From: Myxococcales bacterium
GTDB taxonomy: Bacteria > Myxococcota_A > Bradymonadia > REDH01
Direction of reading: 5' to 3'
Assembly: GCA_947496715.1 (NCBI GenBank)
Contig: CANMDT010000014.1
Location: 1-42,805 of the forward strand
DNA length: 42,805 bases
Shown: piece after piece, positions 8,504 through 33,586 of the stretch
Position numbering within the stretch: the stretch's first letter is position 1
How the letters are laid out: each line of letters opens with the position of its first letter
Translations under genes and position numbers: made by a program
Notes under the pieces: generated by a model
Database searches by the model: none
The model's input: only the letters and a program-made list of their open reading frames with translations
What the model was told of the DNA's origin: nothing

Positions 8504-11500
8504 TTAGCGGGAGCGTCTGCGGCGAGTGACCAGCAGCAGGAGCGGAGCGAGCATCCAGAGCGAGAAGCCGGAGCCAGCCGCGGAGCAACCACTGGCAGGC
8601 TGCAGCGAGCCGCCCAGGTTCGGGGGGCCGGCGTCGCCGCCCGCATCCGTGACGCCGCCGTCGGTGCCTGCGTCTGAATCACCCGCGTCGGCCTCCTCGA
8701 AGTCGAGCTTAAAGACGCCGGTCTCCGACCAGGCTGACTGCGTCACGCCGTCGCTCGCCCGCACGCGCCAGTAGTAGGTGGAGGGGCGCAGGTCTTCATC
8801 GAAGAGGACCGAGGTGGTGCCATCGGCACCCTGGCGCACATTGAGCCGCTTCCAGCCGCCCTGGTCGGTGATGGTGAGCACCGGCGAGACCTGGAAGTCG
8901 TAGGTGATGAGCTGGTCCGCGTCGGAGTCAATCGCGTTCTGCACCGTCAGCGTAAAGGTGGCGTCAGGGGAGACAACGACGTCGCGACCGATGGGCGAGA
9001 TCTGCACCGGCGTCGTGGGCGCCGTGTTGGCGCCCCGTACCGTGAAGGTCGCGTCGGCGAAGGTCGAGGTGGCACCGCCATCGGTGGCGCGGACGCGCCA
9101 GGAGTAGGTTACGCCGGGCACGAGCGGCCGCGGCACAACCACCGAGACAGTCGCACCCGCGCCGCTCACGCCGCGGAAGGAGTAGCTGTCCGTACCCGGG
9201 AAGGTACCCGTCACAAACTCGCCCTCGTAGGTGACCGCATCACCGTCGGGGTCGGTGCTGGCCTCCCAGACAAGGTTGGCCTGCGAGGTCGCCGCCAGCG
9301 AAGCACCGTTGGCGGGCGAGACAATCACGGGCTGGCTAGGCGCGGCAGAACTGGCCTCCACTCGGAAGGTGCGCGAGTCAAACTGACCGTAGGCCGAGCC
9401 GTCGAAGGCCCGCACGCGCCAGATGTAGTTCTCGCGGTTGTCGAGCGTGAGCCCCGTGTCGATTGTCGTGCCCGAACCCTCGCCCGAGGGCGCGAGCGTC
9501 TCGAAGAGCAGGTTGGCTGCCACCGGCAGCGTGCCCCGGTAGAGCGCGAAGGCATAGCTGAGCGGACGGCCCTCGGGGTCGGAGGCGTTCTCCAACTCAA
9601 ACAGCGGTGACTGGGTCGAGATGGTGCCAACCGGCGCGATGCCGCGCGGCGTCGTCGGGACCGAGTTCGAGAGGTTGTAGAAGAAGCAGGCCGGCTCCGA
9701 CCAGGTACCGTCGACGTCCGAGGTCACACCACGCACGCGCCAGCAGTAGGTTGTGTCGTCCGTGAGCGCCGCGTCGACCGAGCAGATGGAGGTATCACGA
9801 TTGACATCCTCTTCCACACCCTCCTGCTGCCAGACCTGACTCGTCAGTTCGACCTCCGAGTAGAGCTCGCACTGGTAGGTAAGCGCCACGCCATCCGGGT
9901 CGTCCACGTTGCTGAACTTCAGGCGCACAACACGCTCCTCCCAGGCTGCACCGTCGACGGGCTCGACCGCAGTCGGCGCGGGCGGGCCAGAGAAGAAGGT
10001 CGGGTCGGTGAGGCCGTAGCACTCCTGCGCGGTGGTCAGCCCGTCGTTGTCCGGGTCGGCCGTATCGTCGGCAGGGTCGTTCACATCGAAGCCAAAGCGG
10101 GCCTCGCAGGTGTCGGGCGCGCCGCCGCTGTCTGCGTCGGGGATGGTCACGGTGATGTCCCACGCCTGGTTGCCGAAGCCGCCGTCGGAGTCGGTTACAC
10201 GGATGCTCACCGATGCGTTCGTGTAGACGCCCGCGGGGGCTGTCCAGCTGATGAGGCCCGTCGGCGAAATGGTCATGCCCGCAGGACCCGACACCAGCGT
10301 GTAGGTCTGCGTGTCGGCCGAGCCTGGGTCGGTAACCGTGACCTGATAGCTGTAGGCCTCGTTCTCGATGGCCGTCGTCACCGGCGCGCTGGAGACGACG
10401 GGCGCAACGTTGGTGATGCGCTGGGTCGTGGTCGCGGTGCGGGTGTCGTTGTAGCTGTCGCGGCCGATCGCACGGATGGTGTAGGTGTTATCGTCGGCGT
10501 AGGTGTGGGTCACGCTGAGGCCGGTGGCGGTCGGCGAGCTATCGCCGAAGTCCCACTCCACCTCGAAGCTGTCGCCGCCCGGGTCGACCGCCGTGGCGGT
10601 CAGCGTCACCACCGAACCTTCGGCGGCCGAGGTGGTCGCGGCGATGACGGGGAGGGGCGCAAGGTTGCGGTAGTTCACTTGGAAGGTGGCGTTGCGGCTG
10701 CCGCCATCCTCATCGGCTGCGGTCGCCGTCACAGTGTAGGTGCCGAGCGATGCATAGGTGTGGCTGAAGGTCGCGCCGGTCGCAGTCGGAGTGCCGTCGC
10801 CGAAGTCCCAAGTCACCGTGACGGTGTCTGCAGCAAGGTCGGTTGTGGTCGCCGTGCCGGTTGCAGCCACGCCCTGGTCGACGATGCGGTCTGCACCAGC
10901 CGAGACGGTCGGGGCGACATTCACAACGGTGACCTGCACGGTCGATGTGGCGGTCAGCAGGCTCGCATTGGTGACGCGGAGCGCGATGGTCTTCTCTGCC
11001 GGGCCGTCGAAAGCGGTACCGACAAGCGACGCGGTCGCGGTGGTCGCATCGGTGAAGATGCCGTCGTTGTTGAAGTCCCAGGCGTAGGTGAGCACCTCGT
11101 CCGACGGGTCGAAGCTCGGCGACCCGGAAACGCTGAGCGTGCTGCCCTCGTTCATGGTGTAGGGGCCAGTCGTTGCCGCCACGGGCACGCGGCCCACGCG
11201 GACGAAGCTGTTGATGAAGTAACCGACGATCTCCGGGATGTCGTCGCCGTTGTCATCAGCGTAGGCGAGCTGACGGGGCGCGAAGCCGTTCCAGAGGATA
11301 CGGCCCCCCTGAAGCGCGAGCGCAGCCTTGGCGCCGGTCACCCGTGCGAAGCGACCCGTCGCCACCGCGCTGCCGATGGTGGGGAGCTCGTCGCCGGCGT
11401 CGGCATAGATCTGCGTGCCGAAGGCCAGCGGCGACCGGACCGTCACGGGAGATGAGTAGAGCTGGATGCTGTCGATCGAAGGCTTCGAGATGCCTTCGAA

Positions 11501-13900
11501 GAACTGCGCCGAGCTGCCGTCGATGTGGTCGCGCACGACCTGCGTCGGGTCGGACGCTGAGGTGATGCCAAAGGCGAGCGCAATCTCGGGGTGCTCGTCC
11601 AGGTTGCTGTAGTTGACGATGAGCCCCTTCGAATTCCCAATCCAGCCCAGCAGGCGGCTCTGCACGCCCGGCTCGGCGAAGGCGTCGGTCAACTGAATGT
11701 CGACCGCAACCTGCTGCTGGCCGCCGGCATCAAAGGCCGCCTCGAATCCGCTGCCGTCGGTCACCACCGACGACCGAAGGCCGGCACGCTGCGCCGCCTC
11801 GGCAAGAATGGAGGGCGACGCGGTCTCGTCGTCGAAGATGAGCGCGAACTCAGGCGCCGCAGCTGCGTCAATCTGCGCGGCCAGCAACTCGACCATGTCG
11901 GGGGTGTTGTCCGCGTCGGTGTCGCTGGCGCCGGCGAGGCCGGTCGAGAACCCATTGACGATCGCCCGTCCGTTGTAGGTCGAGACGGCAGCAACGCCGT
12001 CAAGCAGCGTTCCTGCGCTGTAGCGCGCAACCGTCGAGCCGACGCGGGTGAGGAAGAGCGTGCTGCCGAGGTTGGTGGTTGCCGCGGTTGCGGTCAGCGG
12101 GGAGGGCACACCACCCTTGTTAAAGACACGACCGAGGTGGGTCGCGTCCTTCTTGATCCCGGTCGCTGCAGGCAGGTTGGTGTCTTCCGCCACGCCAAGG
12201 AGCGGCGCCCAGGCCAGCGAGCTAGCCACGCGATACCCGGCTGCAACCACGGGCTGGTCCAGCGCCAGCCAGTCGCTCACCGCCTGCTCGACGGAGGCGC
12301 TGCCGAGCGCTTCCGAATCGGCCCCCTCGATCTCGAGTAGCACGATGGCCGGCTCAAGCGTCGAGAAGGCATCGAGAACGTTGGCCGTCTCAGTTTCGCG
12401 GATGGAGAGGTAGCCGGCCTTGGCTGCGGCTGCCTCAAGCGCCGAACTGTCGCGGGAGTCATCCGAGATCAGCAGCGCAACCGGCCCTGCGTTCTTGGCG
12501 AAGTCGACGGCGTTCGCGAGCAGCGCGGCCATCTCCTGCTTGCCGTTGCCATCGGTGTCGGCCTGGCCATACTCCGAGGCGATGAAGGCGCCCACAACGA
12601 GGTGTCCGCTCAGCGAGCCGAGCAGCGAGGTGCCGCCGCCTGCGAACTGGCCAAGGCTGACGAGGCCGTCCGGAATCGTCGAGACAACGTCGTTGCCGTC
12701 TGCCCGCTCCGTGCCGGTGAGCGCCGTGGAGTCCACAAAGTTGGGCTGCTGGAAGAGGCGGCGCTCGAACCCCGAGGTACCGCGAACGACCGAGGCGCCG
12801 GCATGGTCACCCGACTCCACCGCGAATCCAAGGCGCGTTGCCCAAGCGGGCGCCCCATCGAAATCCGACGAGAAGAAGAGCACCTGCTTGCCCTTGGCAC
12901 GGGCGTTGATGATCGAGTTTTCGAGGCTCGCAGGCGCAGTCGAGAGATCTCGGTACTCGATGAAGAGCGTGTCGAAGTTGCCCCGGTTGATGATGTAGTC
13001 GAGCCGGTCGAAATCGGTGACCGGCGTCGCCGTCACGCCAAGCGAAGTCGAATAGGCAGTCGCAGCGGCAAAATCAGTGTCGCCCACCGTGACCACGCGG
13101 CCCACCTGCTCGTCGAGGATGAACTGAATCGCGTTGCGGTAGTACTCGGTCAGGTCGGTAACGCCGTCGGTATCGTTGTCGTAGAGCGCCATCGCATTGC
13201 CGACCAGCGCGTGCCAGAGCACCTTCTTGCTCGCGGGGAAGAGGATGGCGGGGTTGCCTGTGATTGGGCTGGCGCCAAGCCGCGCGAAGATGCGGCCTCC
13301 GGCAGGCGCGCCAGTGGCAAAGTTACAGATGTCGCCAAAGTCGGTCGTGCCGGCCCGAACGCCCGTCATCGGCGTTACGATGCGGTTGGCAGTGTCGGGA
13401 TAGTTGAAGAGGTCGACGCCGTTCGAAGGCACCGAAGTGACCGCCTGTCCAGCCGAGAGCGATGCGGTGCAGTTCAGACCCATCGCCGCCTGCAGGCTCC
13501 GTGAGATGTCGTACAGCGAGTTTCCGACGGGTTGAAAGAGAAAGGGCGCCGAAAAAATCAGCGGCCGGCCCGCAGCAAGGTGATCAAGGATGATGTTGGC
13601 GGTAACCGATGTGATCGGGCTCCGGTGGAGCTCCACGATCATCAGATCCCACCGGTTCCGCGACGCGCCCGTGGGCCCGTAGCCCGTCACAAAATCGCCG
13701 CCAGTCGGCGCGTAGGTGAAGTTCGCTGAGTCGGTCGGGATGCCGAGCAGGACCAAGGCCGCACGGGCCTCCACAAGCGGCGTGGCCTCGTTGCTCTCAT
13801 CCACCAGAATCACCCGCTGGGCCGAGGCCTCCGAGGCAAACGCGAAAGAGACCACAAGAGATGCAAGGATGATGAGACGCTTCACGATGGTGCTCGCCAT
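8504..13900 (-). CDS. Giant surface protein: four similar N-terminal units, PKD and FN3-like domains, MYXO-CTERM-like tail
   Basis: An 1798-aa exported protein. A signal peptide ends near SEASA-Q (residue 27). Residues about 29-903 form four similar alpha/beta units of 205-240 aa, each ending in an EF-hand-like acidic loop (241-249, 448-456, 660-668, 882-890). Three PKD-like domains follow (WDFNNDG 941-947, WDFGDG 1031-1036, WDFGDS 1116-1121). Next come a cadherin/Ig-like domain (about 1166-1254), a Cys- and Asp-rich thrombospondin-3-like stretch (1255-1300) and four fibronectin-III-like modules, most with WRVRA near their ends (1301-1732). After an acidic Asp/Gly linker, residues 1770-1798 are GC, a hydrophobic helix and RRRRSR, a MYXO-CTERM-type sorting tail. 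It is probably anchored at the cell surface. ATG 13900 is chosen; TTG 13927 and GTG 13885 are alternatives. A TATCCT box at 13927-13932 may be its -10. Confidence 0.9.
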   Translation of the reverse strand: MASTIVKRLIILASLVVSFAFASEASAQRVILVDESNEATPLVEARAALVLLGIPTDSANFTYAPTGGDFVTGYGPTGASRNRWDLMIVELHRSPITSVTANIILDHLAAGRPLIFSAPFLFQPVGNSLYDISRSLQAAMGLNCTASLSAGQAVTSVPSNGVDLFNYPDTANRIVTPMTGVRAGTTDFGDICNFATGAPAGGRIFARLGASPITGNPAILFPASKKVLWHALVGNAMALYDNDTDGVTDLTEYYRNAIQFILDEQVGRVVTVGDTDFAAATAYSTSLGVTATPVTDFDRLDYIINRGNFDTLFIEYRDLSTAPASLENSIINARAKGKQVLFFSSDFDGAPAWATRLGFAVESGDHAGASVVRGTSGFERRLFQQPNFVDSTALTGTERADGNDVVSTIPDGLVSLGQFAGGGTSLLGSLSGHLVVGAFIASEYGQADTDGNGKQEMAALLANAVDFAKNAGPVALLISDDSRDSSALEAAAAKAGYLSIRETETANVLDAFSTLEPAIVLLEIEGADSEALGSASVEQAVSDWLALDQPVVAAGYRVASSLAWAPLLGVAEDTNLPAATGIKKDATHLGRVFNKGGVPSPLTATAATTNLGSTLFLTRVGSTVARYSAGTLLDGVAAVSTYNGRAIVNGFSTGLAGASDTDADNTPDMVELLAAQIDAAAAPEFALIFDDETASPSILAEAAQRAGLRSSVVTDGSGFEAAFDAGGQQQVAVDIQLTDAFAEPGVQSRLLGWIGNSKGLIVNYSNLDEHPEIALAFGITSASDPTQVVRDHIDGSSAQFFEGISKPSIDSIQLYSSPVTVRSPLAFGTQIYADAGDELPTIGSAVATGRFARVTGAKAALALQGGRILWNGFAPRQLAYADDNGDDIPEIVGYFINSFVRVGRVPVAATTGPYTMNEGSTLSVSGSPSFDPSDEVLTYAWDFNNDGIFTDATTATASLVGTAFDGPAEKTIALRVTNASLLTATSTVQVTVVNVAPTVSAGADRIVDQGVAATGTATTTDLAADTVTVTWDFGDGTPTATGATFSHTYASLGTYTVTATAADEDGGSRNATFQVNYRNLAPLPVIAATTSAAEGSVVTLTATAVDPGGDSFEVEWDFGDSSPTATGLSVTHTYADDNTYTIRAIGRDSYNDTRTATTTQRITNVAPVVSSAPVTTAIENEAYSYQVTVTDPGSADTQTYTLVSGPAGMTISPTGLISWTAPAGVYTNASVSIRVTDSDGGFGNQAWDITVTIPDADSGGAPDTCEARFGFDVNDPADDTADPDNDGLTTAQECYGLTDPTFFSGPPAPTAVEPVDGAAWEERVVRLKFSNVDDPDGVALTYQCELYSEVELTSQVWQQEGVEEDVNRDTSICSVDAALTDDTTYCWRVRGVTSDVDGTWSEPACFFYNLSNSVPTTPRGIAPVGTISTQSPLFELENASDPEGRPLSYAFALYRGTLPVAANLLFETLAPSGEGSGTTIDTGLTLDNRENYIWRVRAFDGSAYGQFDSRTFRVEASSAAPSQPVIVSPANGASLAATSQANLVWEASTDPDGDAVTYEGEFVTGTFPGTDSYSFRGVSGAGATVSVVVPRPLVPGVTYSWRVRATDGGATSTFADATFTVRGANTAPTTPVQISPIGRDVVVSPDATFTLTVQNAIDSDADQLITYDFQVSPVLTITDQGGWKRLNVRQGADGTTSVLFDEDLRPSTYYWRVRASDGVTQSAWSETGVFKLDFEEADAGDSDAGTDGGVTDAGGDAGPPNLGGSLQPASGCSAAGSGFSLWMLAPLLLLVTRRRRSR

Positions 13901-14024
13901 TGAGTTGACACAGAAACGAGGGCGCAAGGATACCAGTCCCCTCCTAGACGAAAGGTGGCCTGCGAGACAAGACGAACGGCGGCAGCCTTGCCCCCTCTCA
14001 TCACCCGCTTCGGAGCGCGATTTC

Positions 14025-16331: not shown

Positions 16332-18041
16332 ATGAGCATGAACAAGGCTGTTGAGAAGGGTGGTTTCTTCGCGAAGAAGAAGCAGGATGAGGATTCACTG
16401 AGCTTCGGAGAGCTGCTGCTCGAGACCGAGGCCTCGGGCACGCGCGAAGGCGAAATCTCCAAGGGTATCGTCCTCTCGATCAAGGATGACCAGGCACTCA
16501 TCGACATCGGCGGAAAGTCGGAAGGTCGCATTGACCTCAGCGAGTTCCGCGCCCTCGACGGCACCATCACCCTCGCCGTTGGCGACGAGGTTGAGGTCTT
16601 CGTTGTCGCTCTCGAAGACGACTACGGCCAGTGCCGCCTGAGCAAGCGCGAAGCCGACCGCATGAAGATGTGGGAAGAGATCGCCGGCAAGGTGGAGCGC
16701 GACGAGCTCGTGCTCGGCCTCGTCATTGGTCGCGTCAAGGGCGGCCTCCAGGTCGATATCGGCGTCAAGGCCTTCCTCCCCGGCAGCCAGGTCGAACTCC
16801 GCCCCTCGCGGAACCTCGACAAGTTCATCGGTCAGTCCTTCGAGTTCAAGATCATCAAGTTCAACAAGAAGCGGGGCAACATCGTCCTGTCGCGTCGCGC
16901 CCTCCTCGAGGACGAGCGCGAGCGCCAGAAGCGGAAGACGCTCGAGCGCCTTGTCGAGGGCTCCATCCTCGATGGTGTCGTCAAGAACATCACCGAGTAC
17001 GGCGCCTTCGTCGACCTGGGTGGCATCGACGGCCTCCTTCACATCACCGACATGAGCTGGGGCCGCGTCACCCACCCGGAAGAGGTCGTTCGCATTGGCG
17101 ACGAGCTCCGCGTCAAGGTCCTCAAGTTCAACCGCGAGAGCGAGCGCGTCTCGCTCGGCCTCAAGCAGCTGCAGGCCGACCCCTGGTCGGGCGCAGAGGA
17201 CCGCTACCCCGCCAATGTGCAGGTGCTCGGCAAGGTTGTCTCCATGATCGACTACGGCGCCTTCGTCGAGCTCGAGGAGGGCATCGAGGGCCTCGTCCAC
17301 ATCTCCGAGATGTCCTGGACGCAGCGGGTTAAGCACCCCTCCAAGATGGTCCAGAAGGGCGATGTCGTTCAGTGCGTGGTGCTCAAGATTGACGCCGACA
17401 CCAAGAAGATTTCGCTCGGCATGAAGCAGCTCGAGTCCAACCCCTGGTCGCTCCTCGAGGAGCGCTACCCGGTGGGCACGCAGATTGTCGGCAAGGTCCG
17501 CAACATCACCGACTTCGGCATCTTCATCGGCATCGAAGACGGCATCGACGGCCTTGTCCACATCAGCGACATGTCCTGGACCGCCAAGCTCAAGCACCCC
17601 TCCGAGGCCTACAAGAAGGGCGACGATGTTGAGGCGGTTGTCCTCTCCATCGACGTCGATAACGAGCGCTTCTCGCTCGGCATCAAGCAGCTCTCGGCCG
17701 ACCCCTGGGAGAGCCTCCCCTCCCGCCTGCCCATTGGCTCGGTCACCAACGCGACCATCACCAAGATCACCGACTACGGCGCCTTTGCCGAGGTCGAGGA
17801 TGGCATCGAGGGTCTCGTGCACATCTCCGAACTCTCCCGCGACCATGTCACCAACCCCAACGATGTGGTCAAGGCTGGCGACAAGGTGAAGGTCGAGATC
17901 ATCTCGCTCGAGCCCAAGGAGCGCAAGATTGCTCTCTCCATGCGCTCCTACCTGCAGCGTCTTGAGTCCGGCGCGCTCCGCAGCCACCGTGACGAGGGTG
18001 GAGCCACCTTCGCCGACCTGCTCGGCAAGAAGGGCGAGTAA
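16332..18041 (+). CDS. rpsA: 30S ribosomal protein S1
   Basis: A 569-aa protein with six S1 OB-fold repeats at about residues 42-106, 126-189, 210-278, 295-365, 382-453 and 468-538. Repeats three to six are the most canonical, with the pattern YGAFV-(D/E)L, GLLHI or GLVHI, and SLGLKQL. S1 bridges mRNA to the 30S subunit and helps unfold structured leaders. Repeats 1 and 2 are diverged, as is normal, because they bind the ribosome rather than RNA. Codon use is strongly biased to C-ending codons, as expected for a highly expressed gene. An AGGA lies about 10 nt before the ATG. The TolC-like gene begins 7 nt after its stop. Confidence 0.97.
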   Translation: MSMNKAVEKGGFFAKKKQDEDSLSFGELLLETEASGTREGEISKGIVLSIKDDQALIDIGGKSEGRIDLSEFRALDGTITLAVGDEVEVFVVALEDDYGQCRLSKREADRMKMWEEIAGKVERDELVLGLVIGRVKGGLQVDIGVKAFLPGSQVELRPSRNLDKFIGQSFEFKIIKFNKKRGNIVLSRRALLEDERERQKRKTLERLVEGSILDGVVKNITEYGAFVDLGGIDGLLHITDMSWGRVTHPEEVVRIGDELRVKVLKFNRESERVSLGLKQLQADPWSGAEDRYPANVQVLGKVVSMIDYGAFVELEEGIEGLVHISEMSWTQRVKHPSKMVQKGDVVQCVVLKIDADTKKISLGMKQLESNPWSLLEERYPVGTQIVGKVRNITDFGIFIGIEDGIDGLVHISDMSWTAKLKHPSEAYKKGDDVEAVVLSIDVDNERFSLGIKQLSADPWESLPSRLPIGSVTNATITKITDYGAFAEVEDGIEGLVHISELSRDHVTNPNDVVKAGDKVKVEIISLEPKERKIALSMRSYLQRLESGALRSHRDEGGATFADLLGKKGE

Positions 18042-18048
18042 TCCCGCC

Positions 18049-19470
18049 ATGCGGCGGTTTTCCTCCGCATCGGCCTGTTGGCCGCCAGCGCTCCTTACGG
18101 CAGCGTTGGCGGCCATCGCCGTTTTGCGGGCTGCGCCTGCCGCCGCAGAACCCGGCCCTGTCGTCACGCTGCAGCAGGTCCTCGAGGCCGCCGACGCCCA
18201 CCCGCTCGTCGGCAGCGAACGCTCGCAGCGGGCAGAGGCCGCTGCCCGCGCCGACGAGGCCAGCTGGGCCCGTTTCCCCCGCATCGACATCCTCGCCACC
18301 CTCGCGCCCGTGCCGAGCATCAACCTCAGCGACCCCGGCAATCCCGCCGCCGATACCCGCGACGAGACCGACCTCCTGAAAGACCTCTTCGGCGACACAA
18401 ACCCCTACTACCGCTTCGAGGCCAAGGCGGTGCAGCCGCTCTACACCTTCGGCAAGATCACCCTCGCGCGGGAGCTTGCAGCGGTGGGCGTGCGGGCCGC
18501 CGACGTAGAGGTGGAGAAGGCGCGCCTCGAGGCCCGCTTTGCCGCCTATCGCGCCTACCGCGCCGTGCAGTGGCACGGCGAGACCGACGCGCTGCTGCGA
18601 GAGGCCTTCGACCGGCTCAAGACCGCTCGCGAGAAGATTGAGGTCCGCATCGAAGATGGCGCCCCGGGCGCACGAACCGACCTCCGGAAACTCCTCATCT
18701 CCATGCCCACCGTCGTCTCTTCACGCTCTGCTTCCGACGAAGTTGGCCTGACGGCCCGCGAGTCGCTCGCCGCACAGTTCGGCCTCGAACCCGACTTCCT
18801 GCCCGAGCCCTTCGATGTGACGACGGGCAGCGAGGCACCGCCGCTCGACGGCGTCTTGGCCTTTGCCCACGCGCACCGCCCCGACGCCCGCCTGCTCCTG
18901 CTTGCTGTGCAGGGCAGGGAGCTCGAGGCCAAGCTCGGTTGGCGTCAGCTGGCGCCAGACTTCTTCGCCACCGCCAGCGTGGGTGGCGCCTACGCACCCT
19001 CCATCACCGATGTCTCCGGCCCCTTCGTCATCGACCCCTACAACCGGTTCGGAATCGGCATGTTCGTCGGAGTGAAATGGGACCCCGACCTCTTTCGAAA
19101 GCTGGCACAGACCACCCGCCTCGAAGCCCAAGCTGAATCGACACGGCAGAGCAGATTGGCTGCGCTTGCCGGCATCGATGTTGAGGTGCGCACCGCCTAC
19201 CACGAGGTTGCAGGAAAGCGGGCTGTGGTGGCGGCCTACCAGGAGGCCTTCCGCGCGGCCGATGCCTGGCTCAAGCAGGTCTGGTTCCAGTACTCGCAGG
19301 GCCTCGCCGAGTTCACGGAGGTCGAAGACCCGCTCAAGCAATACTACCAAGTAGCGGGCGCCCGTCTGAAGGCCATCCTCGAACTCCAGGTGGCCCAGGC
19401 CAACCTCGCCATCAAGTGTGGCTCAGACCAATTCGCGGCTTGGCCCGTCGGTGCAAGTGTGGTTGAATAG
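18049..19470 (+). CDS. TolC-like outer-membrane efflux protein
   Basis: A 473-aa protein of the outer-membrane efflux (OEP/TolC) family, forming the outer-membrane exit duct for type I secretion or RND efflux. A signal peptide covers about residues 1-33 (Arg-Arg start, Ala-rich hydrophobic core, AAA-E cleavage). The helical repeats include an N-terminal VLEAADAHP segment and QPLYTFGKI, typical of the first half. The second half ends with FQYSQGLAEFTEVEDPL and a long helix. The reading frame is open further upstream inside rpsA, but ATG 18049 gives the signal peptide directly and lies 7 nt after the rpsA stop. No inner-membrane or periplasmic adaptor partner is adjacent; the MlaC-like gene follows 65 nt on. 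Confidence 0.85.
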   Translation: MRRFSSASACWPPALLTAALAAIAVLRAAPAAAEPGPVVTLQQVLEAADAHPLVGSERSQRAEAAARADEASWARFPRIDILATLAPVPSINLSDPGNPAADTRDETDLLKDLFGDTNPYYRFEAKAVQPLYTFGKITLARELAAVGVRAADVEVEKARLEARFAAYRAYRAVQWHGETDALLREAFDRLKTAREKIEVRIEDGAPGARTDLRKLLISMPTVVSSRSASDEVGLTARESLAAQFGLEPDFLPEPFDVTTGSEAPPLDGVLAFAHAHRPDARLLLLAVQGRELEAKLGWRQLAPDFFATASVGGAYAPSITDVSGPFVIDPYNRFGIGMFVGVKWDPDLFRKLAQTTRLEAQAESTRQSRLAALAGIDVEVRTAYHEVAGKRAVVAAYQEAFRAADAWLKQVWFQYSQGLAEFTEVEDPLKQYYQVAGARLKAILELQVAQANLAIKCGSDQFAAWPVGASVVE

Positions 19471-19535: not shown

Positions 19536-20204
19536 ATGAGAATCTCCGCCCTGTTCGCAGCCATCAGCCTCTCTTCGCTCTGCCTGCTCCCCGCGACGGG
19601 CCGCGCAGTCACGGCCCCCGCCGCTGCCCCTGCCCCTGCCGCTGCCCCCGTCGCTGCGAAGGTCACGCCAACTGCCTACGTCCAGTCGCAGGCCGCTACC
19701 GTCATCAGCATCATCAACACCCCGGCGCGTCAGGGGTCGCCTGCAGCCCGCGAGCGGGAGGCAAAGCTCAAGGGCGCCGTTCGCGGCTTCATGTCCTTCC
19801 AGCTCCTCGCCGACCGCACGCTCGGCGACCACCTCAAGGCCCGGACGCCTGCCGAACGCGCTGAGTTTCTCGGCCTCCTCACGCAGCTCATCGAGACGAG
19901 CTACGCCAAGAGCCTCGGTCGCGCTGAGGTCAAGCCGAGCGACTACACGGTTGCCTACACCGGCGAGCGGCTGCGGGGCGAACGGGCAACGGTCTCCGGG
20001 TCGGTCAAGGTCCGCTCCGATGCGCACGATGTTGAACTCAAACTTCAGCGGAGCGGGCAGGGCTGGCTGATCCTCGACATCGTCACCGACGAGGTCTCGC
20101 TCGCCGAGTCCTACTCCGAGTCGTTCGACCGCATCATCAAGCGGGACGGCTGGCCGGCGCTCATCACCCGGATGAAGGACAAACTCGCCAAGCTCCGCAA
20201 CTAG
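19536..20204 (+). CDS. MlaC/Ttg2D-family periplasmic lipid-binding protein
   Basis: A 222-aa exported protein. A signal peptide spans about residues 1-24, followed by an Ala/Pro-rich linker (28-45) that is unusually low in complexity. The remainder matches MlaC: a helical start, TPAERAEFLGLLTQLIETSYAKSL at about 108-131, a beta sheet that includes VSGSVKV, then WLILDIVTDEVSLAESY and a closing helix. MlaC proteins carry phospholipids between the outer and inner membranes or take part in related toluene-tolerance exporters. The Mla ABC components are not in the window. Its stop overlaps that of the convergent FHA gene by 4 nt. Upstream it may share the rpsA/TolC-like transcript. Confidence 0.85.
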   Translation: MRISALFAAISLSSLCLLPATGRAVTAPAAAPAPAAAPVAAKVTPTAYVQSQAATVISIINTPARQGSPAAREREAKLKGAVRGFMSFQLLADRTLGDHLKARTPAERAEFLGLLTQLIETSYAKSLGRAEVKPSDYTVAYTGERLRGERATVSGSVKVRSDAHDVELKLQRSGQGWLILDIVTDEVSLAESYSESFDRIIKRDGWPALITRMKDKLAKLRN

Positions 20205-21889
20205 GGCTGCGCGGCCGCTGCCGACTGGCGCGCTCTTGCGAGTCGAATCGCTCGTGCACTGCTGAGCGGCCCGACGTCGGACGCGGTGATGTAGTAGGCG
20301 ATGGCGTCGCTCCACCTGTTGGTTTCAAAGGCCTGATCTCCACAGAGCGAGGCCTGCTCCATGAGTGGCCTGTCGGCCATGGTAGAGGAGGGAGCCCCTG
20401 TCGACTTGGCAATCGTCTGGGCCGCCGTCCGCGCCAGATGATAGGAGGCAGCAGCCTTGGTGCAGTCTCCTGCCGTGGCGAAGCCGTCGCCGATTGCGAG
20501 ATGGATGCCGCCGAGGCTCGGATAGACACTCCCGTTCAGCAGCGTCTGTGCCTTTGCGCGGGTACTGGGCTCCTTGGCGGTCTCCTGCAGGCAGTCCTCC
20601 GCGCGGCTCAGTTCGGCGATGGCAGCTGCGTTGTTTTTCGTCGCCACAAAACGGTCGACAGCACCCTTGAAGATTGCCGCGCAGGCCTCGACCGCCCGCT
20701 CCGAGGCTGCCCGTGAACGCACGATAGAACGCTCTGCCGCAAGCGCCGCATCGTTTGGAGCACGGCGCACCGCCTCATCGTAGGCAGCCAAGCTCGCCGC
20801 CCAGTCGCCGGCCGAGGCAAGGGCCTGCGCCCGCGCGGCCGGCGACTGGGCATCGAACCTCGAGCTGAGGCTCCTGACGCGGTCGCGGGCGCCCCGCATC
20901 TGGACGGCCGTCTCTGAGGTCGGGTCGTCCAGGCGAAAGAGCGCGAACGAGATTGTCGCGGCGAGGCCGAGCATAACCAGCACCAGCAGCATCGCAATCA
21001 GCCCCTTGCGCTCGCGACGTTGGAGGTCGACCTCGGCCCCCCCCGCCGTGCTCCGCGCGAGCAGCTCCGCACGAACCGCTGGGCGGTCGGAGGCTGTGTA
21101 GATGACGGGCGTGTTGCCGAGGACGATGACCTCGCCTTCGCGGAGCACATGGCTCCGCACGGCCACGCCGTCTACCAGCACGCTGCCGGGGATACCCGTA
21201 TCGGAGATGGTCCACCGCATGTCCTGACGGGTCAGGCGCGCATGGAACCTGATCACGCCCACACGGTCGAGTTGGAGGTCATTCGACGGGTCGCGACCGA
21301 GCGTAAGCGTCTCGCTGTCTAGGATAAGTGCCTCGTTCGTACCGGGGCGATCGGTGATGAGCAGGTAGCCGACCAGCTGTGCGCGAAAGGCGCCAGACCG
21401 CGTTGCCACCTTGTTGGTGGAGACGGTCGATCGGATGGTGTCGAAGGCATCATCGGAGTCGAGCAGGCCATAGTCGTCCTGCGCAGCCGGCAGCTCCGTG
21501 GCGGGCGGAACGAAGATGGCGAAGCTGCCCGTGTCTCGAATCTCGCGAAGCTGCATCACGCGGAGCCGGTAGCCACCGATCTCGATGAGCGAGCGGTCGT
21601 CGAGCCCCTTGTCGCCCTCGATGCGGTTGCCATCCACGAAGGTGCCGTTGGCCGAGCCGAGGTCGGCGATGAAGGGGCCATCATGGTCCATCCCCACGCG
21701 GGCATGCTGGCGCGAAATGGGTGTCCCCTTGAGAAGCACCTCGCAGGGCGCAAGGCGGCCAATGGTCAACCCGTTAGGTGGGAGAGCGCGGTCGAAGATG
21801 AGCCGTCCTGCCTCATCTTCGACCGTCAGGCGGTACTGCTGTTGCGCCGTCGGCCAGCTGCCGGAATCCGTCTGGGTCGGCGTCGTCAC
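20201..21889 (-). CDS. Membrane protein with two FHA domains and a TPR-like C-terminal region
   Basis: A 562-aa protein. The first FHA domain, at about 40-112, has the phosphothreonine-binding residues GR (44-45), SRQH (59-62) and NG (81-82). The second, at about 195-265, keeps GR (198-199) and His216 but has lost the Ser of SxxH and a clear NG, so it may not bind phosphopeptide. A single membrane helix lies at about 296-318 after a basic RRERK stretch, placing both FHA domains in the cytoplasm and the C-terminal half (about 330-562, helical and TPR-like) in the periplasm. The start is GTG, 4 nt after the stop of the FHA/CpaF-like gene, so both are likely co-transcribed. Its stop shares CTAG with the mlaC-like stop. 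A link between Ser/Thr kinase signalling and an envelope complex is inferred. Confidence 0.85.
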   Translation of the reverse strand: MTTPTQTDSGSWPTAQQQYRLTVEDEAGRLIFDRALPPNGLTIGRLAPCEVLLKGTPISRQHARVGMDHDGPFIADLGSANGTFVDGNRIEGDKGLDDRSLIEIGGYRLRVMQLREIRDTGSFAIFVPPATELPAAQDDYGLLDSDDAFDTIRSTVSTNKVATRSGAFRAQLVGYLLITDRPGTNEALILDSETLTLGRDPSNDLQLDRVGVIRFHARLTRQDMRWTISDTGIPGSVLVDGVAVRSHVLREGEVIVLGNTPVIYTASDRPAVRAELLARSTAGGAEVDLQRRERKGLIAMLLVLVMLGLAATISFALFRLDDPTSETAVQMRGARDRVRSLSSRFDAQSPAARAQALASAGDWAASLAAYDEAVRRAPNDAALAAERSIVRSRAASERAVEACAAIFKGAVDRFVATKNNAAAIAELSRAEDCLQETAKEPSTRAKAQTLLNGSVYPSLGGIHLAIGDGFATAGDCTKAAASYHLARTAAQTIAKSTGAPSSTMADRPLMEQASLCGDQAFETNRWSDAIAYYITASDVGPLSSARAIRLARARQSAAAAQP

Positions 21890-21893
21890 CCTG

Positions 21894-23699
21894 TCAGCTC
21901 TCGGTCAGGAAGCGGAGCGGCCGAAGGTTGCAGACACCGTTGGTGCCGTAGAGCTGCTCGCGGGCGAACCGCGGATGGGCAGCGAGGGTGAGTTCGCTCA
22001 TGCTGACGACGAACAGCCCGCCAGCATCTGCATCCACATGGATGAGCAGGTCGATGCGGGCAGCGAGCCGGTCGTGCACCGCCGCCGACTCTGCAGCGCA
22101 GTGTTCTGCCGCAGCAAAGGCAAGCGAAGAGATGGCGTCGGCGCTCGAGCGCGCGGCCACGGCCACCAGCGAGCTCACCGCATGCCCCGTCGGACCGGCG
22201 AGCCAGATGGCGACATCCTTCTCCACGAGCGGGTCGATAATCGCATAGTCGGGCCGCAGCATGAAGGCGCGCTGCAGGTCGGAGTTCAGAGAGTTGGTGT
22301 TGTTTTCCAAACGGAGCACGTTGAAGCCGCGCAGCGTGGTGGAAGGGACCTCCTCGACAATCACGATTCGGTCGCTGCTGTCGGCCAGCAGGCCATGAAT
22401 AAAGGAGGTCGCAAGCGAGCGGTTGGGCGACGAGACAACCACGTTGGACCTGCTCCGAAGCGCCTCGTGCAGCCAAGCAACGATGGCGTCGGGGTTGCTT
22501 GCGCGGAAGGTGGAGCGAACATCGCCTGTGCTTCTGGGAGAACGGCTGATCGAGGCGGCACCACCCTCGGCGCTGTTGGCACTGTTCACGACGACCGTCG
22601 GGAAGCCATCAAGCAGGATGCGGGCCGAGCCGCCGTTGCCCACTTGGGCGGCAGTGGCCAGCCGTCGGAAGGCAAGGAGCGCTGTCTCCTGTCGGCCGAA
22701 CCCAACCGCGGCTCGCTGCAGGCTGCTATCTGCCTGGCGCTCGAAGATCTCGCCGGCTGCGTGCAGATGCACCTCGGTGGCCTCGGTGGTGTTCAGCAGC
22801 AGCTCCAGCGGACCGAGGCCCAAGAGCTCGGCGAGCAGGAGCGGCGCCAGAGCCGCCCGATCCTCGCTGTCGAATTCGGGAGGCGTTGCGAGATCCACGG
22901 CCTTCGCCACCAGCGGCGAGAAGCGGAGTACATCTTCATGGCGGATCGGGTAGGCGACGGGAAGGTCGGCTAGGCTCACACGGAGCAGCGCGCCGTTCAG
23001 AGCGGCAGCGAAGACCTCCGCGAAGGCTGCTCCCTCCGGCCGACGCAGGGGGCCAAAGACCGCGGGCTTGCGCTCGATACGGATGCGCGCACGCCGACTC
23101 GCAGCCTCGGGCGCAGCGCGGTCGTGGTCGACCGAAGCGCTGCCATTTTGCGTTGCTGCAGAGAGCCTACTGCCAGCGGAGAAGGAGGGGACGCCCAGCG
23201 TGATGCCCTCTCCAAGCACCGCATGCACCGAGGTGACGCGTGTGCTTGTCGCATCCTTGCCAAACCCTGTCGCGGGCAGGTGGGAGCCAGTCTCGATATC
23301 GCGCGGCATCACCTGCGCGTGCGAGCCGGTCAACGACGGCATGTTGCCCGACGGGCTGATCGGGGGCCCGATCACATACTCGCTCACGCTCGGCCGCGGG
23401 ACGCCAGCACCCTCATGCTTGAGGAGAACCCGGAAGTCGCCCACGACAATCGTGTCGCCCGACTTCACCTCGGTGGGTGCGCTGATCTTCTGCCCGGAGA
23501 CCGAGGTCCCATTGGTGCTCTGCAGGTCGTGGACCACGAAACGGTCCTCGGTCACAACGATGCGTACATGCCGCTTGGAGACGCTCGAACGGGCGAGAAT
23601 GATGTCGTTGCCGTAGGCGCGACCCATCACAATCTCGGGCTTGTCGAGTTCGATGCGCTCCGGCTGCTTGCCGCGTTCTGTGACCGTGATGCTGTACAT
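21894..23699 (-). CDS. FHA domain fused to a degenerate CpaF/TadA-type ATPase domain
   Basis: A 601-aa protein with no signal peptide or membrane segment. The N-terminal FHA domain (about 1-95) is canonical: GRAYGND 26-32, SKRH 41-44, STNGT 61-65. A low-complexity Ser/Pro-rich linker (100-200) follows. Residues about 210-580 follow the order of CpaF-type secretion ATPases: an N-terminal LLAELLGLGPLELLL segment, an ALRSRSNVVVS strand, RIVIVEE, LRPDYAIIDP and AGPTGH. However, the Walker A (GGTGSGKTT in CpaF) is replaced by SSPNRSLAT at 423-431. The Walker B GEVRG is DPLVE, and the terminal TTLHAN His is lost. It is probably a pseudo-ATPase that uses the fold as a scaffold or regulator. FHA-CpaF fusions with intact ATPase motifs are known in Myxococcota and Actinobacteria. 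Confidence 0.82.
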   Translation of the reverse strand: MYSITVTERGKQPERIELDKPEIVMGRAYGNDIILARSSVSKRHVRIVVTEDRFVVHDLQSTNGTSVSGQKISAPTEVKSGDTIVVGDFRVLLKHEGAGVPRPSVSEYVIGPPISPSGNMPSLTGSHAQVMPRDIETGSHLPATGFGKDATSTRVTSVHAVLGEGITLGVPSFSAGSRLSAATQNGSASVDHDRAAPEAASRRARIRIERKPAVFGPLRRPEGAAFAEVFAAALNGALLRVSLADLPVAYPIRHEDVLRFSPLVAKAVDLATPPEFDSEDRAALAPLLLAELLGLGPLELLLNTTEATEVHLHAAGEIFERQADSSLQRAAVGFGRQETALLAFRRLATAAQVGNGGSARILLDGFPTVVVNSANSAEGGAASISRSPRSTGDVRSTFRASNPDAIVAWLHEALRSRSNVVVSSPNRSLATSFIHGLLADSSDRIVIVEEVPSTTLRGFNVLRLENNTNSLNSDLQRAFMLRPDYAIIDPLVEKDVAIWLAGPTGHAVSSLVAVAARSSADAISSLAFAAAEHCAAESAAVHDRLAARIDLLIHVDADAGGLFVVSMSELTLAAHPRFAREQLYGTNGVCNLRPLRFLTES

Positions 23700-23824: not shown

Positions 23825-24948
23825 TCAATCAGCTGTTTCGGACCGTTCGCGACCTGTCGTCACCGTCGTTGCGCCGCTGCGAACCTGCGATGCGACCTGC
23901 GGCTGTGACTGGCTGATGATGAGCCCCGCCCGAGCGCTCTCTGTGTAGAGATGGCAGGAGACAAAATGGCCCGCGCCAACCTCCGTAAGGACAGGCGCCT
24001 CGGTCCGGCACCGGCCGTAGGCAGCAGGGCAGCGGGTATGAAACCGGCAGCCCGAGGGCGGGTTGATGGGGCTCGGTACATCGCCCTTGAGCAGGATCCG
24101 TTCGCGCTGCTGTGTCGTGTCGGGCTCCGGAATCGCCGACAGCAGCGCCTGGGTGTAGGGGTGGGCAGGGTGCTTGAAGAGCTCGTCGGTCTCCGCGAGT
24201 TCGACCAGCTGGCCGAGATACATGACCGCGATCCGGTTGGAGATATGGCGCACCACGCTCAGGTCGTGCGCGATGAAGAGGTAGGAGAGCTTGAACTCGT
24301 CCTGCAGGTCGAGAAGCAGGTTGATGACCTGCGCCTGCACCGAGACATCGAGCGCCGAAACAGCCTCGTCGCATACGATGAACTCAGGCTTGAGCGAGAT
24401 CGCCCGCGCGATTCCGATGCGCTGCCGCTGACCGCCCGAGAACTCGTGCGGGTAGCGCGAGACATAGCTGCGCTGCAGGCCGACCTTCTCCAGCAAACTC
24501 ATCACCTCGTCGCGCACCGTGGCGGCCGTCGCGACGCCATGGATCCGCATCGCCTCGCCTACGATACTCTCGATGGTCATCCGTGGGTTGAGGCTCGAGT
24601 AGGGGTCCTGGAAGACGATCTGCATGTTGCGTCGCTCGGCGCGCAGCTCCGCAGGCGAGAGCTTGAACAGGTCGCGCCCTTTGAAGAGCGCTGAGCCCGA
24701 CGTCGGCTCGACCAGGCGGAGCAGCGTGCGGCCAATCGTCGTCTTGCCGCAGCCCGACTCGCCGACCATGCCGAGCGTCTCTCCGGGGAAGATGTCGAAC
24801 GAGACATCATCCACCGCCTTCACCTGTCCGACCGTCCGGCCGAGTAGCCCCTTCTGGATGGGGAAATACTTCTTCAGGCCAGCCACACGGACAAGCGGCT
24901 CAGGCCGCTGCGGCAGCTGCGTGGTGGTGCCGTGCGAGGGTGTGAAAC

Positions 24949-24952
<4 letters not shown>
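23825..24952 (-). CDS. Oligopeptide/dipeptide ABC transporter ATP-binding protein (OppF/DppF type)
   Basis: A 375-aa ATPase subunit of a peptide importer. Walker A GESGCGKT, the Q-loop [11 protein letters not shown], signature [10 protein letters not shown], Walker [13 protein letters not shown] and switch His ([10 protein letters not shown]) are all present. The C-terminal oligopeptide-transporter extension with CRFHTRCP is present too, as in OppF/DppF. The N-terminal half before Walker A has the typical [13 protein letters not shown] stretch. The start overlaps the upstream OppD-type gene by 4 nt (ATGA), and a good SD (GGAGAGG) precedes it. It is the last gene of the five-gene transporter operon. 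It would pair with the OppD-type ATPase to form a heterodimer. Confidence 0.95.
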
Positions 24953-31072: not shown

Positions 31073-31102
31073 TCGCTAGCGGCAACGCGGGTCTGTCGTC
31101 AA
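31073..31102 (-). promoter_or_regulatory. Putative promoter of the peptide-transporter operon
   Basis: On the minus strand, TTGACG (31097-31102) and TAGCGA (31073-31078) are separated by 18 nt. The -35 box overlaps the stop codon of the upstream RCC1 gene. This would give a leader of about 45-50 nt before ATG 31018. Confidence 0.4.
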
Positions 31103-32418
31103 CGCGCCTTGTCCCCTGGCGCGGAGAACTCGACAGGCACAGGCAGTTCGCCCGGGTCGTCACCCCAGTTCTCCATGCCTACCTTGCGGCTGCCGAGCTG
31201 GTTTGCCAGGCCGTTCTCGCCCCAGCAACGGAGCGAGGTGCCGAAGACGGCGCAGCTCCAGCGGGGACCTGCTGCCACCGCACGTGCGGGCAATTTGGGC
31301 CCGAGGTTGATGGTCGGCATCGCGCCCACCGCAAACTCGGCGCCCGCGTCGTCCGCATCCCCTCGGCCAAGCTGACCCGCAGCACCGCGTCCGAAGCAGG
31401 AGACCTCGCCTGCGGCTGTCGTCAAGCAGGTGTGCTGGCTGCCCGCCGACACCGAGGTAATCGCCGTGGCAAACCGGATGGGCTCCACCGACGTCACCTG
31501 CTCGTCGTCGCCAATGGCGCTGGTGCTGCCCGTGCCGAGCCGGCCATCCCAGCCGTAACCCCAGCAGCGGGCGGTCCCGTTCGCCATGAGCGCGCAGCTG
31601 TGGAGGTCGCCCGCAGAAATCGCAACGGCTGGTCCGCCAAGCGCAACGCGCTGGCCCACGGAAGGGAACCGCTGTGGTGTGTCGCCCCAACTCAGCCGGT
31701 CGCCGCGGCCGGTCTGCCCGGATTCGCCGCGGCCCCAGCAGAGTACATCGCCTCCATCGAGCAGCGCGCAGGTGTGCTTGGCGCCCGCGGCCACGCCGAT
31801 TGCCTTCGCGCCCAGAGGTACAGGTCCTCGTGCATCGGGCCGCTCTCCAGGCAGCAAGCCGTAGTCTGCCGTATCGCCGTAGCCGAGCTGGCCCGCCTCG
31901 TTGGCGCCCCAACAGAAGAGGTTGCCGCGGTCTGTCACTGCGCAGCTGTGTGCGAAGCCTGCGGCGACCCCAATCGCCCGCTCGCCGAGGCTGACGGACG
32001 ACATCTCCGAGACGGTCTCGTCGTCGCCCATGTTGTCGCGTCCGCCACGGCCAAGCTGCCCGCGGAGGTTGCGGCCCCAGCAGCGGACCTGCCCGCGATC
32101 GCTCACCGCGCAGGTGTGGTCTTCACCCGCATCGGCCGACACGACCTTGCCTGGAACGGAGACGAGGCCGCCTGCGCCTGCAAGCTCGTCGTCGCCGATA
32201 GAGAGCCGGTCGCCGTAGCCCAACTGCCCGAACTCGCCGCGGCCCCAGCAGCGCATGGTGCCGTCTGTCATCACAGCGCAGGTGTGGCCACCGCCGATCG
32301 TGGCGAAGGCCGCTGCCTCGCTCGGTCCCGATCCCTGCTGAGGCCCTCCGCAGGCTGCGAGCAAGAGCGCTGCGACGAAGGCGGCGAGGAGAGGCGTCCC
32401 TGAGTGCGAGGTCGACAT
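31099..32418 (-). CDS. RCC1-repeat lipoprotein (predicted seven-bladed propeller)
   Basis: A 439-aa lipoprotein: the signal ends in LLLAAC (Cys about residue 23). Seven RCC1-type repeats follow, each with the pattern GxxHTCAV, about ten residues, then CWG and GQLG. Seven repeats are the number needed to close one beta propeller. Most repeats carry two cysteines (HTC and RCW) at matching places, which suggests one disulphide per blade in an oxidising compartment. Several inter-blade loops have an acidic GDD or DDE motif. Such proteins are often found at the surface of Myxococcota and Bradymonadota, but their partners are unknown. ATG 32418 has GGGAG 8 nt upstream; the frame is open upstream but without an SD. 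Confidence 0.9.
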   Translation of the reverse strand: MSTSHSGTPLLAAFVAALLLAACGGPQQGSGPSEAAAFATIGGGHTCAVMTDGTMRCWGRGEFGQLGYGDRLSIGDDELAGAGGLVSVPGKVVSADAGEDHTCAVSDRGQVRCWGRNLRGQLGRGGRDNMGDDETVSEMSSVSLGERAIGVAAGFAHSCAVTDRGNLFCWGANEAGQLGYGDTADYGLLPGERPDARGPVPLGAKAIGVAAGAKHTCALLDGGDVLCWGRGESGQTGRGDRLSWGDTPQRFPSVGQRVALGGPAVAISAGDLHSCALMANGTARCWGYGWDGRLGTGSTSAIGDDEQVTSVEPIRFATAITSVSAGSQHTCLTTAAGEVSCFGRGAAGQLGRGDADDAGAEFAVGAMPTINLGPKLPARAVAAGPRWSCAVFGTSLRCWGENGLANQLGSRKVGMENWGDDPGELPVPVEFSAPGDKAR

Positions 32419-32448
32419 AAGCGTGCTCCCGAGCGATGAAGTAACCCC

Positions 32449-32478
32449 AGTATGGCCCGATCCGCGCGACAGCGTCAA
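32449..32478 (-). promoter_or_regulatory. Putative promoter of the RCC1 lipoprotein gene
   Basis: On the minus strand, TTGACG (32473-32478) and CATACT (32449-32454) are separated by 18 nt, predicting a start near 32442 and a leader of about 24 nt. This is the best -10 match of the putative promoters in the window. Confidence 0.5.
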
Positions 32479-32500
32479 CCACGCTGAGATGCGTTCGGCT

Positions 32501-33586
32501 TCACACCGCGCCAGCCTCCAGCCGAAGGCCGAGCTGCCGCGCCCGGAGCTGCCCGCAGGCACCATCGGCGCTCTGACCCACCGTGCGGCGGAGCGTCGCC
32601 GAGACCCCTGCCGCACGGAGCCGGCGCACGAAGGCATTGGCAACCGGCCAGGGCGTTGTCTCGAAGGGCATGCCCTCCACCCGGTTCCAGCGAATCGCCG
32701 ACAGGTGGCCCCGCCGGCCCGCCAGCAGCGTTGCCATTGCTTCCGACTCTTCTTCGCCATCGTTGATGCCCGCAAGCAGCACCATCTCGACCTGAAAGGG
32801 ACGGCCGGTCGCGGCTGCGAAGCGGTCGGCGGCCTCCAGCAACGATACCGGCGTCGCCTTCGTCTGCGTCGGGATGAGCGCCGCCCGCGTTTCGGCGCGC
32901 GCGCTGTGCAGCGAGAGCGCGAGCGTGAACTTCCGTCCGGTCGCGGTCAGGCGGTCGATGGCCGACGCGGGTCCGACCGTGCTGACAATCACGTGCCGCG
33001 GCCCAATGCCGGCCTCATCGCGCAAGATGTCGAGTGCGGCCGCCACCGCCTGCAGGTTCTGCGTCGGCTCCCCCGACCCCATGAAGACGATCCGTTCCAC
33101 CGAACCCCGCCTCCGCAGGTGCACCACCTGCTCCAGGATCTCCGAGACCGTGAGGTTGCGGGCTACCTTGTCGAGGCCCGACGCACAGAAGCGGCAGGCC
33201 ATCGCGCAGCCAACCTGCGACGAGATGCAGGCCGAGCCGGCTGCGGCCCGCGCCGGCCGCATCGCGGTGTCGAGGTGGGGCGGAGCGCTCGCGCCGGGCA
33301 GGTGAACGGCCTCCACCGAGCGGCCATCGTTGAGCTGTAGCAAGATTTTGCAGGAGCCGTCGCTGCTCGGCGAATGGGTCACGATGGAGGTGCCGAGCCA
33401 TGCGAAGCGCGCATCGAAAGCCTGTCGCAGCCGCTCAGGAACCGTTTCGTCTGCCATCGGGTCGCCGCCCGCCAAAAGCGTCCGCCGAAGCCGCATCGCA
33501 TGCATCGGGGCGTAGCCGGCCGTGCGCGCAGCCTCGCCCGCCTCGTTGGCCGTCAGCGAGAGAAAGGCGGGCCTACCGTCCGTCAA
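32501..33586 (-). CDS. rlmN: Radical SAM 23S rRNA methyltransferase, RlmN family
   Basis: A 361-aa radical SAM enzyme. The iron-sulphur cluster motif is CAMACRFC at 127-134 (Cys127, 131, 134). Cys120 in ACISSQVGC and Cys344 in GACGQL correspond to the two mechanistic cysteines of E. coli RlmN, Cys118 and Cys355. The usual GMGEP reads GSGEPTQN here. RlmN methylates A2503 of 23S rRNA and A37 of some tRNAs; the GEP form supports RlmN over Cfr. TTG 33586 is chosen because it overlaps the ferredoxin-like stop (TTGA), has AGAGG just upstream, and is followed by a family-like N-terminal helix. The frame is open further, inside the previous gene. Confidence 0.88.
   Translation of the reverse strand: MTDGRPAFLSLTANEAGEAARTAGYAPMHAMRLRRTLLAGGDPMADETVPERLRQAFDARFAWLGTSIVTHSPSSDGSCKILLQLNDGRSVEAVHLPGASAPPHLDTAMRPARAAAGSACISSQVGCAMACRFCASGLDKVARNLTVSEILEQVVHLRRRGSVERIVFMGSGEPTQNLQAVAAALDILRDEAGIGPRHVIVSTVGPASAIDRLTATGRKFTLALSLHSARAETRAALIPTQTKATPVSLLEAADRFAAATGRPFQVEMVLLAGINDGEEESEAMATLLAGRRGHLSAIRWNRVEGMPFETTPWPVANAFVRRLRAAGVSATLRRTVGQSADGACGQLRARQLGLRLEAGAV

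Follow-up and report, generated by a model that had tools for sequence, protein, structure and literature searches.

We analyzed a 42,805-nucleotide stretch of DNA from a Myxococcales bacterium (hereafter, the window). On its reverse strand lies a gene that fuses an FHA domain to a degenerate CpaF-like domain, followed by a second FHA-protein gene. Genomes are labeled Gnnn (the window's own is G000), loci and proteins Lnnn, and the families of the window's class f1 to f7. The features are as follows.

17929..19470, + strand: TolC/OEP-family outer-membrane protein, convergent, conserved synteny (PF02321, 9.5e-21)
19536..20204, + strand: MlaC-family protein, convergent, conserved synteny (PF05494, 5.6e-24)
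20201..21889, − strand: partner gene, 562 aa, GTG start, 4 nt downstream of the pseudo-ATPase gene; two FHA domains, one predicted transmembrane helix (about aa 297-318), and a TPR-containing C-terminal part
21894..23699, − strand: FHA-CpaF pseudo-ATPase ("pseudo-KilF"), 601 aa, ATG start, intact frame (ORF, family searches)
21897..23009, − strand: CpaF-like domain, aa 231-601, comprising a three-helix bundle, N-terminal domain, and degenerate ATPase core (AlphaFold2 and Foldseek)
22152..22166, − strand: VAVAA, replacing TTxHxN; Ala515 at the motif His position
22221..22238, − strand: IDPLVE, replacing the Walker B region VGECRG; Pro490 at the E357 position
22404..22433, − strand: SSPNRSLATS (residues 423-432), replacing Walker A; Ala430 (nt 22410-22412) at the K287 position
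23070..23399, − strand: linker, aa 101-210, under low constraint
23439..23633, − strand: FHA domain, Pfam aa 23-87 (PF00498 and alignment)
23825..24952, − strand: OppF-type ABC ATPase of an oligopeptide transporter, upstream; synteny common to several relatives

The arrangement recalls the Kil (Tad-like) predation system of Myxococcus xanthus. Its FHA-fused ATPase is KilF (MXAN_3107) (PMC8460266, PMC10433427, PMC12075869), and the next gene after kilF is kilD (MXAN_3108), which encodes an FHA-domain protein (PMC8460266, PMC10433427). The window protein, too, carries an N-terminal FHA on a CpaF-type ATPase (KilF architecture from PMC8460266), and an FHA-protein gene follows directly in both cases, KilD being compared by gene order and published description only. 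However, KilF drives a pilus and is encoded beside the secretin KilC, while the window protein lacks the catalytic residues and no TadB/TadC is found in its genome. We use "KilF-type" for proteins with the published architecture and secretin/TadB/TadC neighbors, not by reference to the M. xanthus sequences.

A conserved fold with a degenerate active site

We find a strong match to PF00498 at aa 23-87 (2.7e-17; 63.4 bits against a gathering cut-off of 20.7), in keeping with the canonical FHA domain of the initial annotation. Residues G26, R27, S41, H44, S61, N63, and G64 are invariant in 86 of 86 members, pseudo and intact alike. This invariance suggests that the FHA domain binds phosphothreonine.

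The CpaF-like part matches the NCBIfam TadA ATPase family (TIGR03819, 3.8e-10, aa 265-562) at 39.5 bits, below the curated cut-off of 373. The intact Kil-locus protein L075 also falls under this cut-off, scoring only 312. PF00437 (T2SSE) has no Pfam match at all in the window protein. The AlphaFold2 model of aa 231-601 (mean pLDDT 88.2, pTM 0.80) is built on an alignment of 51 sequences, intact paralogues among them, which helps the fold but makes it rest on homology; that homology to CpaF is seen independently by sequence searches. Foldseek places the CpaF structures 9e24, 8rjf, and 8rkd at the top of the PDB (9e24: E=2.9e-19, TMq 0.66-0.69), followed by FlaI, archaeal GspE, and VirB11. As modeled, the window protein has a CpaF/TadA (VirB11/PilT superfamily) fold. 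The HMM search and structure prediction that the initial annotation had proposed as checks thus favor CpaF rather than an unrelated fold. Its claim that CpaF-type segments follow residue 210 stands as to homology but not as to the start, with residue ~210 still within the linker. Over its C-terminal 371 aa, the window protein shares fold and domain order with Caulobacter crescentus CpaF, which itself has no FHA.

We mapped the catalytic positions through the intact paralogue L097, as aligned to C. crescentus CpaF in the PDB, with residue roles taken from PMC12019362. A functional CpaF/TadA motor has a GxxxxGK[ST] Walker A with Lys287, together with Glu357, the motif His, and the Arg fingers R217, R223, and R347. 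In the window protein, G284 is replaced by Arg, K287 by Ala430, E312 by Ser, E357 by Pro490, and the motif His by Ala515. All three Arg fingers are absent (R217 to Ile, R223 to Pro, and R347 to Met480). T288 and E308 alone are kept, and Glu stands for D309. Seven of the seven KilF-type (Kil-locus) paralogues compared from the same class keep all of the tabulated positions. Thus, the initial reading of the gene holds: the frame is intact, SSPNRSLAT occupies Walker A at precisely residues 423-431 (nt 22407-22433), DPLVE puts a proline at the Walker B Glu, and the TTLHAN His is gone. The Walker A replacement is not a chance effect, because the model matches CpaF and the change has become fixed throughout the genus. 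We infer from these residues that the window protein no longer hydrolyses ATP.

Active-site positions are retained at 27%, against 38% for other KilF-invariant positions (permutation p=0.06), so that erosion specific to the pocket is suggestive only. Since active-site erosion is only modestly stronger, the CpaF-like domain has diverged broadly and not only at the pocket.

Selection and history of the paralogue

Two genus-mates have full copies, with 87% (G001) and 91% (G002) identity to the window protein. SSPNRSLATS is identical in all three species, and the motif is therefore conserved as such among close homologues. In the dead ATPase core (aa 406-601), dN/dS is 0.084 between the window and G001 and 0.087 between G001 and G002. 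Values are 0.11-0.15 for the whole gene, 0.05-0.08 for the FHA, 0.21-0.28 for the linker, and about 0.11 for aa 211-405. The core comparison of the window with G002 gives a ratio of 0.27 from 9 synonymous and 7 non-synonymous changes, too few to inform. For that pair (G002 copy, L050), synonymous divergence at 21897-22484 is 0.06 in the core versus 0.67 in the preceding 195 codons, which suggests that this segment was recently exchanged by recombination between the window species and G002.

Low dN/dS, open frames, and a motif shared by three species agree with the initial view that the gene is selected and not decaying. Simple damage to a copy that is intact in close relatives is ruled out: the genus-mates are identical at the motif, and the intact relatives sit in another family of the class. 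By homology, fold, lost residues, and selection, the window protein is a paralogue of KilF that has lost its catalytic residues.

Two explanations compete with this at the level of the protein itself. One is that relaxed selection eroded the active site of a decaying gene, for which one might cite the very long branch of the window's genus (2.5-2.8 changes per column) and the loss of the gene from some related genomes. We find this scarcely credible given dN/dS of 0.11-0.15 gene-wide and about 0.085 in the dead domain (both comparisons with G001), a frame open in all copies, the same replacement in three species, and retention in 50/57 class genomes. The other is that the protein is a slow ATPase or nucleotide sensor with an unconventional nucleotide site. 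Equivalents of T288 and E308 do remain, and one family of the class keeps Lys, Glu, and His, so that some members of the clade may still bind nucleotide. However, the loss of the Lys, the Walker B Glu, the His, and three Arg fingers, with the Walker A loop glycines replaced, makes such a role improbable in the window protein; in C. crescentus CpaF, K287A alone abolishes ATPase activity (PMC12019362).

The ATPase-like part of this orphan paralogue was found in 50 of the 57 genomes of the window's class (21 in f5, 10 in f2, 6 in f3, 5 in f7, 4 in f1, 3 in f6, and 1 in f4). This class is the Bradymonadales group (GTDB Bradymonadia): contig C122 of G016 carries a gene sequence identical to that on JACCWM010000154.1, which belongs to a MAG of the Lujinxingiaceae in the order Bradymonadales. 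It is missing from some high-completeness class genomes (e.g., G004, G012, and G026), and the gene is thus dispensable in some lineages. Degenerate members extend beyond the class to Polyangium sp. y55x31, a Polyangiaceae MAG, and several other Myxococcota families. Most of the genomes are draft MAGs, with few named cultured organisms. Contigs of G006, G008, G009, G014, G015, G023, and G055 break inside the FHA-CpaF linker and split the gene over two, so that the fusion will often go unnoticed in automated annotation.

At the Walker Lys position, Lys occurs in the class in 17 f5 genomes only. The residue is Arg in f2, f3, f4, f7, g23, and G039, Asn in G038, Gln in f6, and Ala in f1, window included. 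Family-wide, the position is K/R/A/Q/N/V/H/L/T/D or deleted, whereas the FHA residues are unvarying. The Lys-retaining f5 proteins keep Lys, Glu, and His, but their activity is uncertain because the R347 finger and E312 are missing.

In a tree of 102 rows with motif columns removed, the orphans form a clade of 73 rows (support 100/100) that branches from KilF-type FHA-CpaF proteins. Within it, Lys persists in the 17 f5 rows, in L125 (Kofleriaceae), and in L151, and nowhere else; L125 has a nearly full catalytic set. A single clade of all Lys-less rows is rejected in the class tree (AU p=0.001), and 12 Dollo losses of the Walker Lys, without regain, fit the 102-row tree. Unweighted parsimony, with 3-4 changes (4 on the 102-row tree) and Lys regain, was set aside because joint regain of Lys, Glu, and His in one family is implausible and L125 keeps its nearly full catalytic set inside the clade. 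Branches are long, the window's among them, and the exact branching is uncertain. Judged by this tree, the Walker site was apparently lost repeatedly, about a dozen times, in related lineages. Nor is loss of catalysis strictly confined to genomes without KilF: a dead copy and an intact KilF-type copy coexist in G034, G038, G129, and G087 (judged by split matches in G034 and G038).

The partner gene and the missing pilus machine

Of the 49 class loci with sufficient sequence, 48 have a double-FHA gene directly 3' of the orphan; the exception is G039. No such gene follows the Kil-locus paralogues of the class (L075 and L097-L102). The partner is short in f2 and f6 (about 250 aa), and the second FHA of the window's partner, as read from its sequence, is without the usual Ser and Asn residues. 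TagH, GltG, and SctD-type proteins resemble the pair in having an FHA or FHA-like domain, and the partner in its transmembrane helix and TPR (weak NCBIfam/Pfam matches). None of them has an ATPase-like domain, and the TagH and GltG matches are far under the family cut-offs.

Beyond the orphan pair, convergent MlaC and TolC genes are found in f1, f2, f5, f6, and f7. A secretin, an intact FHA-ATPase, and a double-FHA gene occur together at L139, L143, L146, and L204, and the outgroup locus L139 additionally carries the MlaC/TolC pair. The gene set of L139 ties the orphan position to a Kil-type locus. Thus, the FHA-ATPase/double-FHA pair looks like a relic of a Kil locus.

We detected no other CpaF and no TadB/TadC in the window's genome (draft assembly G000, 93% complete). 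It does encode PilB/GspE/PilT-type ATPases, and its platform proteins are only of the PilC/GspF type, with paired domains. Likewise, the drafts G001, G002, G005, three f3 genomes, G009, G033, and G039 have no TadB/TadC, only PilC/GspF-type domains, and the family profile finds no second CpaF in f1, f3, f4, and f7 genomes. Single-domain TadB/TadC are detectable by this approach, being found at the Kil locus in the positive controls G010 and G016. No secretin adjoins the pseudo-ATPase gene in the window. The initial annotation had suggested that the protein scaffolds or modulates a Tad-like machine; this is unsupported in the window's genome and in its genus and family mates. Without TadB/TadC, the Tad/Kil apparatus cannot be the partner here, unless these genes are missing from the drafts. 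Any link to a Tad apparatus would, in the window's genome, be historical rather than current.

Six Kil-type loci from other Myxococcota families (L205, L207, L208, L209, L212, and L213) each encode a pair of CpaF-type ATPases separated by about 4.5 kb, one of the FHA type and the other of about 390-600 aa without a detected FHA. The M. xanthus Kil system, in contrast, is described with a single ATPase.

The window's 3.56-Mb genome encodes about 43 Hanks kinases. One Hanks-type Ser/Thr kinase lies within the window itself (40863-41651, + strand; ORF 40821-42734), about 17 kb from the FHA genes.

A proposed phosphorylation-gated scaffold

We consider it probable that the window protein is a catalytically dead KilF paralogue that now serves, with its double-FHA partner, as a phosphorylation-gated scaffold at the inner membrane. 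The pair would have originated in a Kil-type secretin-ATPase-FHA locus. Most lineages would then have lost motor activity, and that of the window also the pilus machine, while scaffolding was kept. The pseudo-ATPase, presumably no longer hydrolysing ATP, may assemble into a multivalent cytoplasmic platform, probably as a ring by analogy with CpaF. Its FHA domains could dock proteins that the many Hanks kinases of the cell have phosphorylated on threonine. The partner, with two FHA domains presumably in the cytoplasm, one transmembrane helix, and TPRs presumably in the periplasm, might tether the pseudo-ATPase at the membrane, and phosphorylation would gate the resulting scaffold.

The same proteins could instead serve machines that persist in the genome. 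As a regulatory or structural subunit of the remaining type IVa pilus or type II secretion machine, the pseudo-ATPase might dock on PilC/GspF without ATP or enter kinase-controlled mixed rings with PilB/PilT/GspE. The genome keeps these ATPases and PilC/GspF-type platform proteins, the CpaF fold is preserved, N-terminal domain included, and lineages without Tad still keep the pseudo-ATPase. We regard this role as unlikely, however, as the loci examined show no synteny with type IV pilus or type II secretion genes, and CpaF-type motors normally pair with TadB/TadC and not with PilC. Involvement in envelope lipid or efflux transport, where the protein would be a phospho-regulated cytoplasmic organizer for MlaC and TolC, would account for a convergent pair kept across five families and the outgroup L139. 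Against it, MlaC and TolC are convergent and not co-transcribed with the FHA genes, and both are missing at this position from f3 and Polyangia-type loci that still have the pseudo-ATPase. The oligopeptide transporter, moreover, is also syntenic in many of the loci that carry the MlaC/TolC pair, and we give a lipid or efflux role very little credence. A pseudo-ATPase scaffold that kept the phospho-reading function of a KilF-like motor is the simplest account.

More tentatively, a broader history is conceivable, in which Myxococcota repurposed a killing-pilus motor of the Kil type, about a dozen times, as an ATP-independent, phosphothreonine-reading ring scaffold. With its double-FHA inner-membrane partner, this scaffold would form a previously undescribed, kinase-controlled envelope complex that outlives the pilus.

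In the open-access literature, we found no protein of the CpaF/KilF line described as catalytically dead. Here, such a protein is fixed, selected, and widespread, with its ATPase lost repeatedly and its putative phosphothreonine-reading domain unchanging. Repeated loss of the ATPase beside a constant FHA separates force generation from phospho-signaling in an FHA-fused motor. The role of the many FHA domains is an open question in the Kil papers, and genomes that have the FHA protein and its partner, but neither motor nor pilus, offer a direct test, as they would show which part is signaling. The larger pattern, which the initial annotation had no means of seeing, is that of an old KilF paralogue that has repeatedly lost catalysis and has its own dedicated double-FHA partner gene.

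The OppF-type neighbor is probably a bystander. Beside the oligopeptide transporter, the window also encodes a 558-aa RCC1-repeat protein (31099-32775, − strand). A 1807-aa protein (8504-13927, − strand) resembles in part both the C-terminal portion of the myxosortase-dependent M36 peptidase family and a polycystin (PCC) model.
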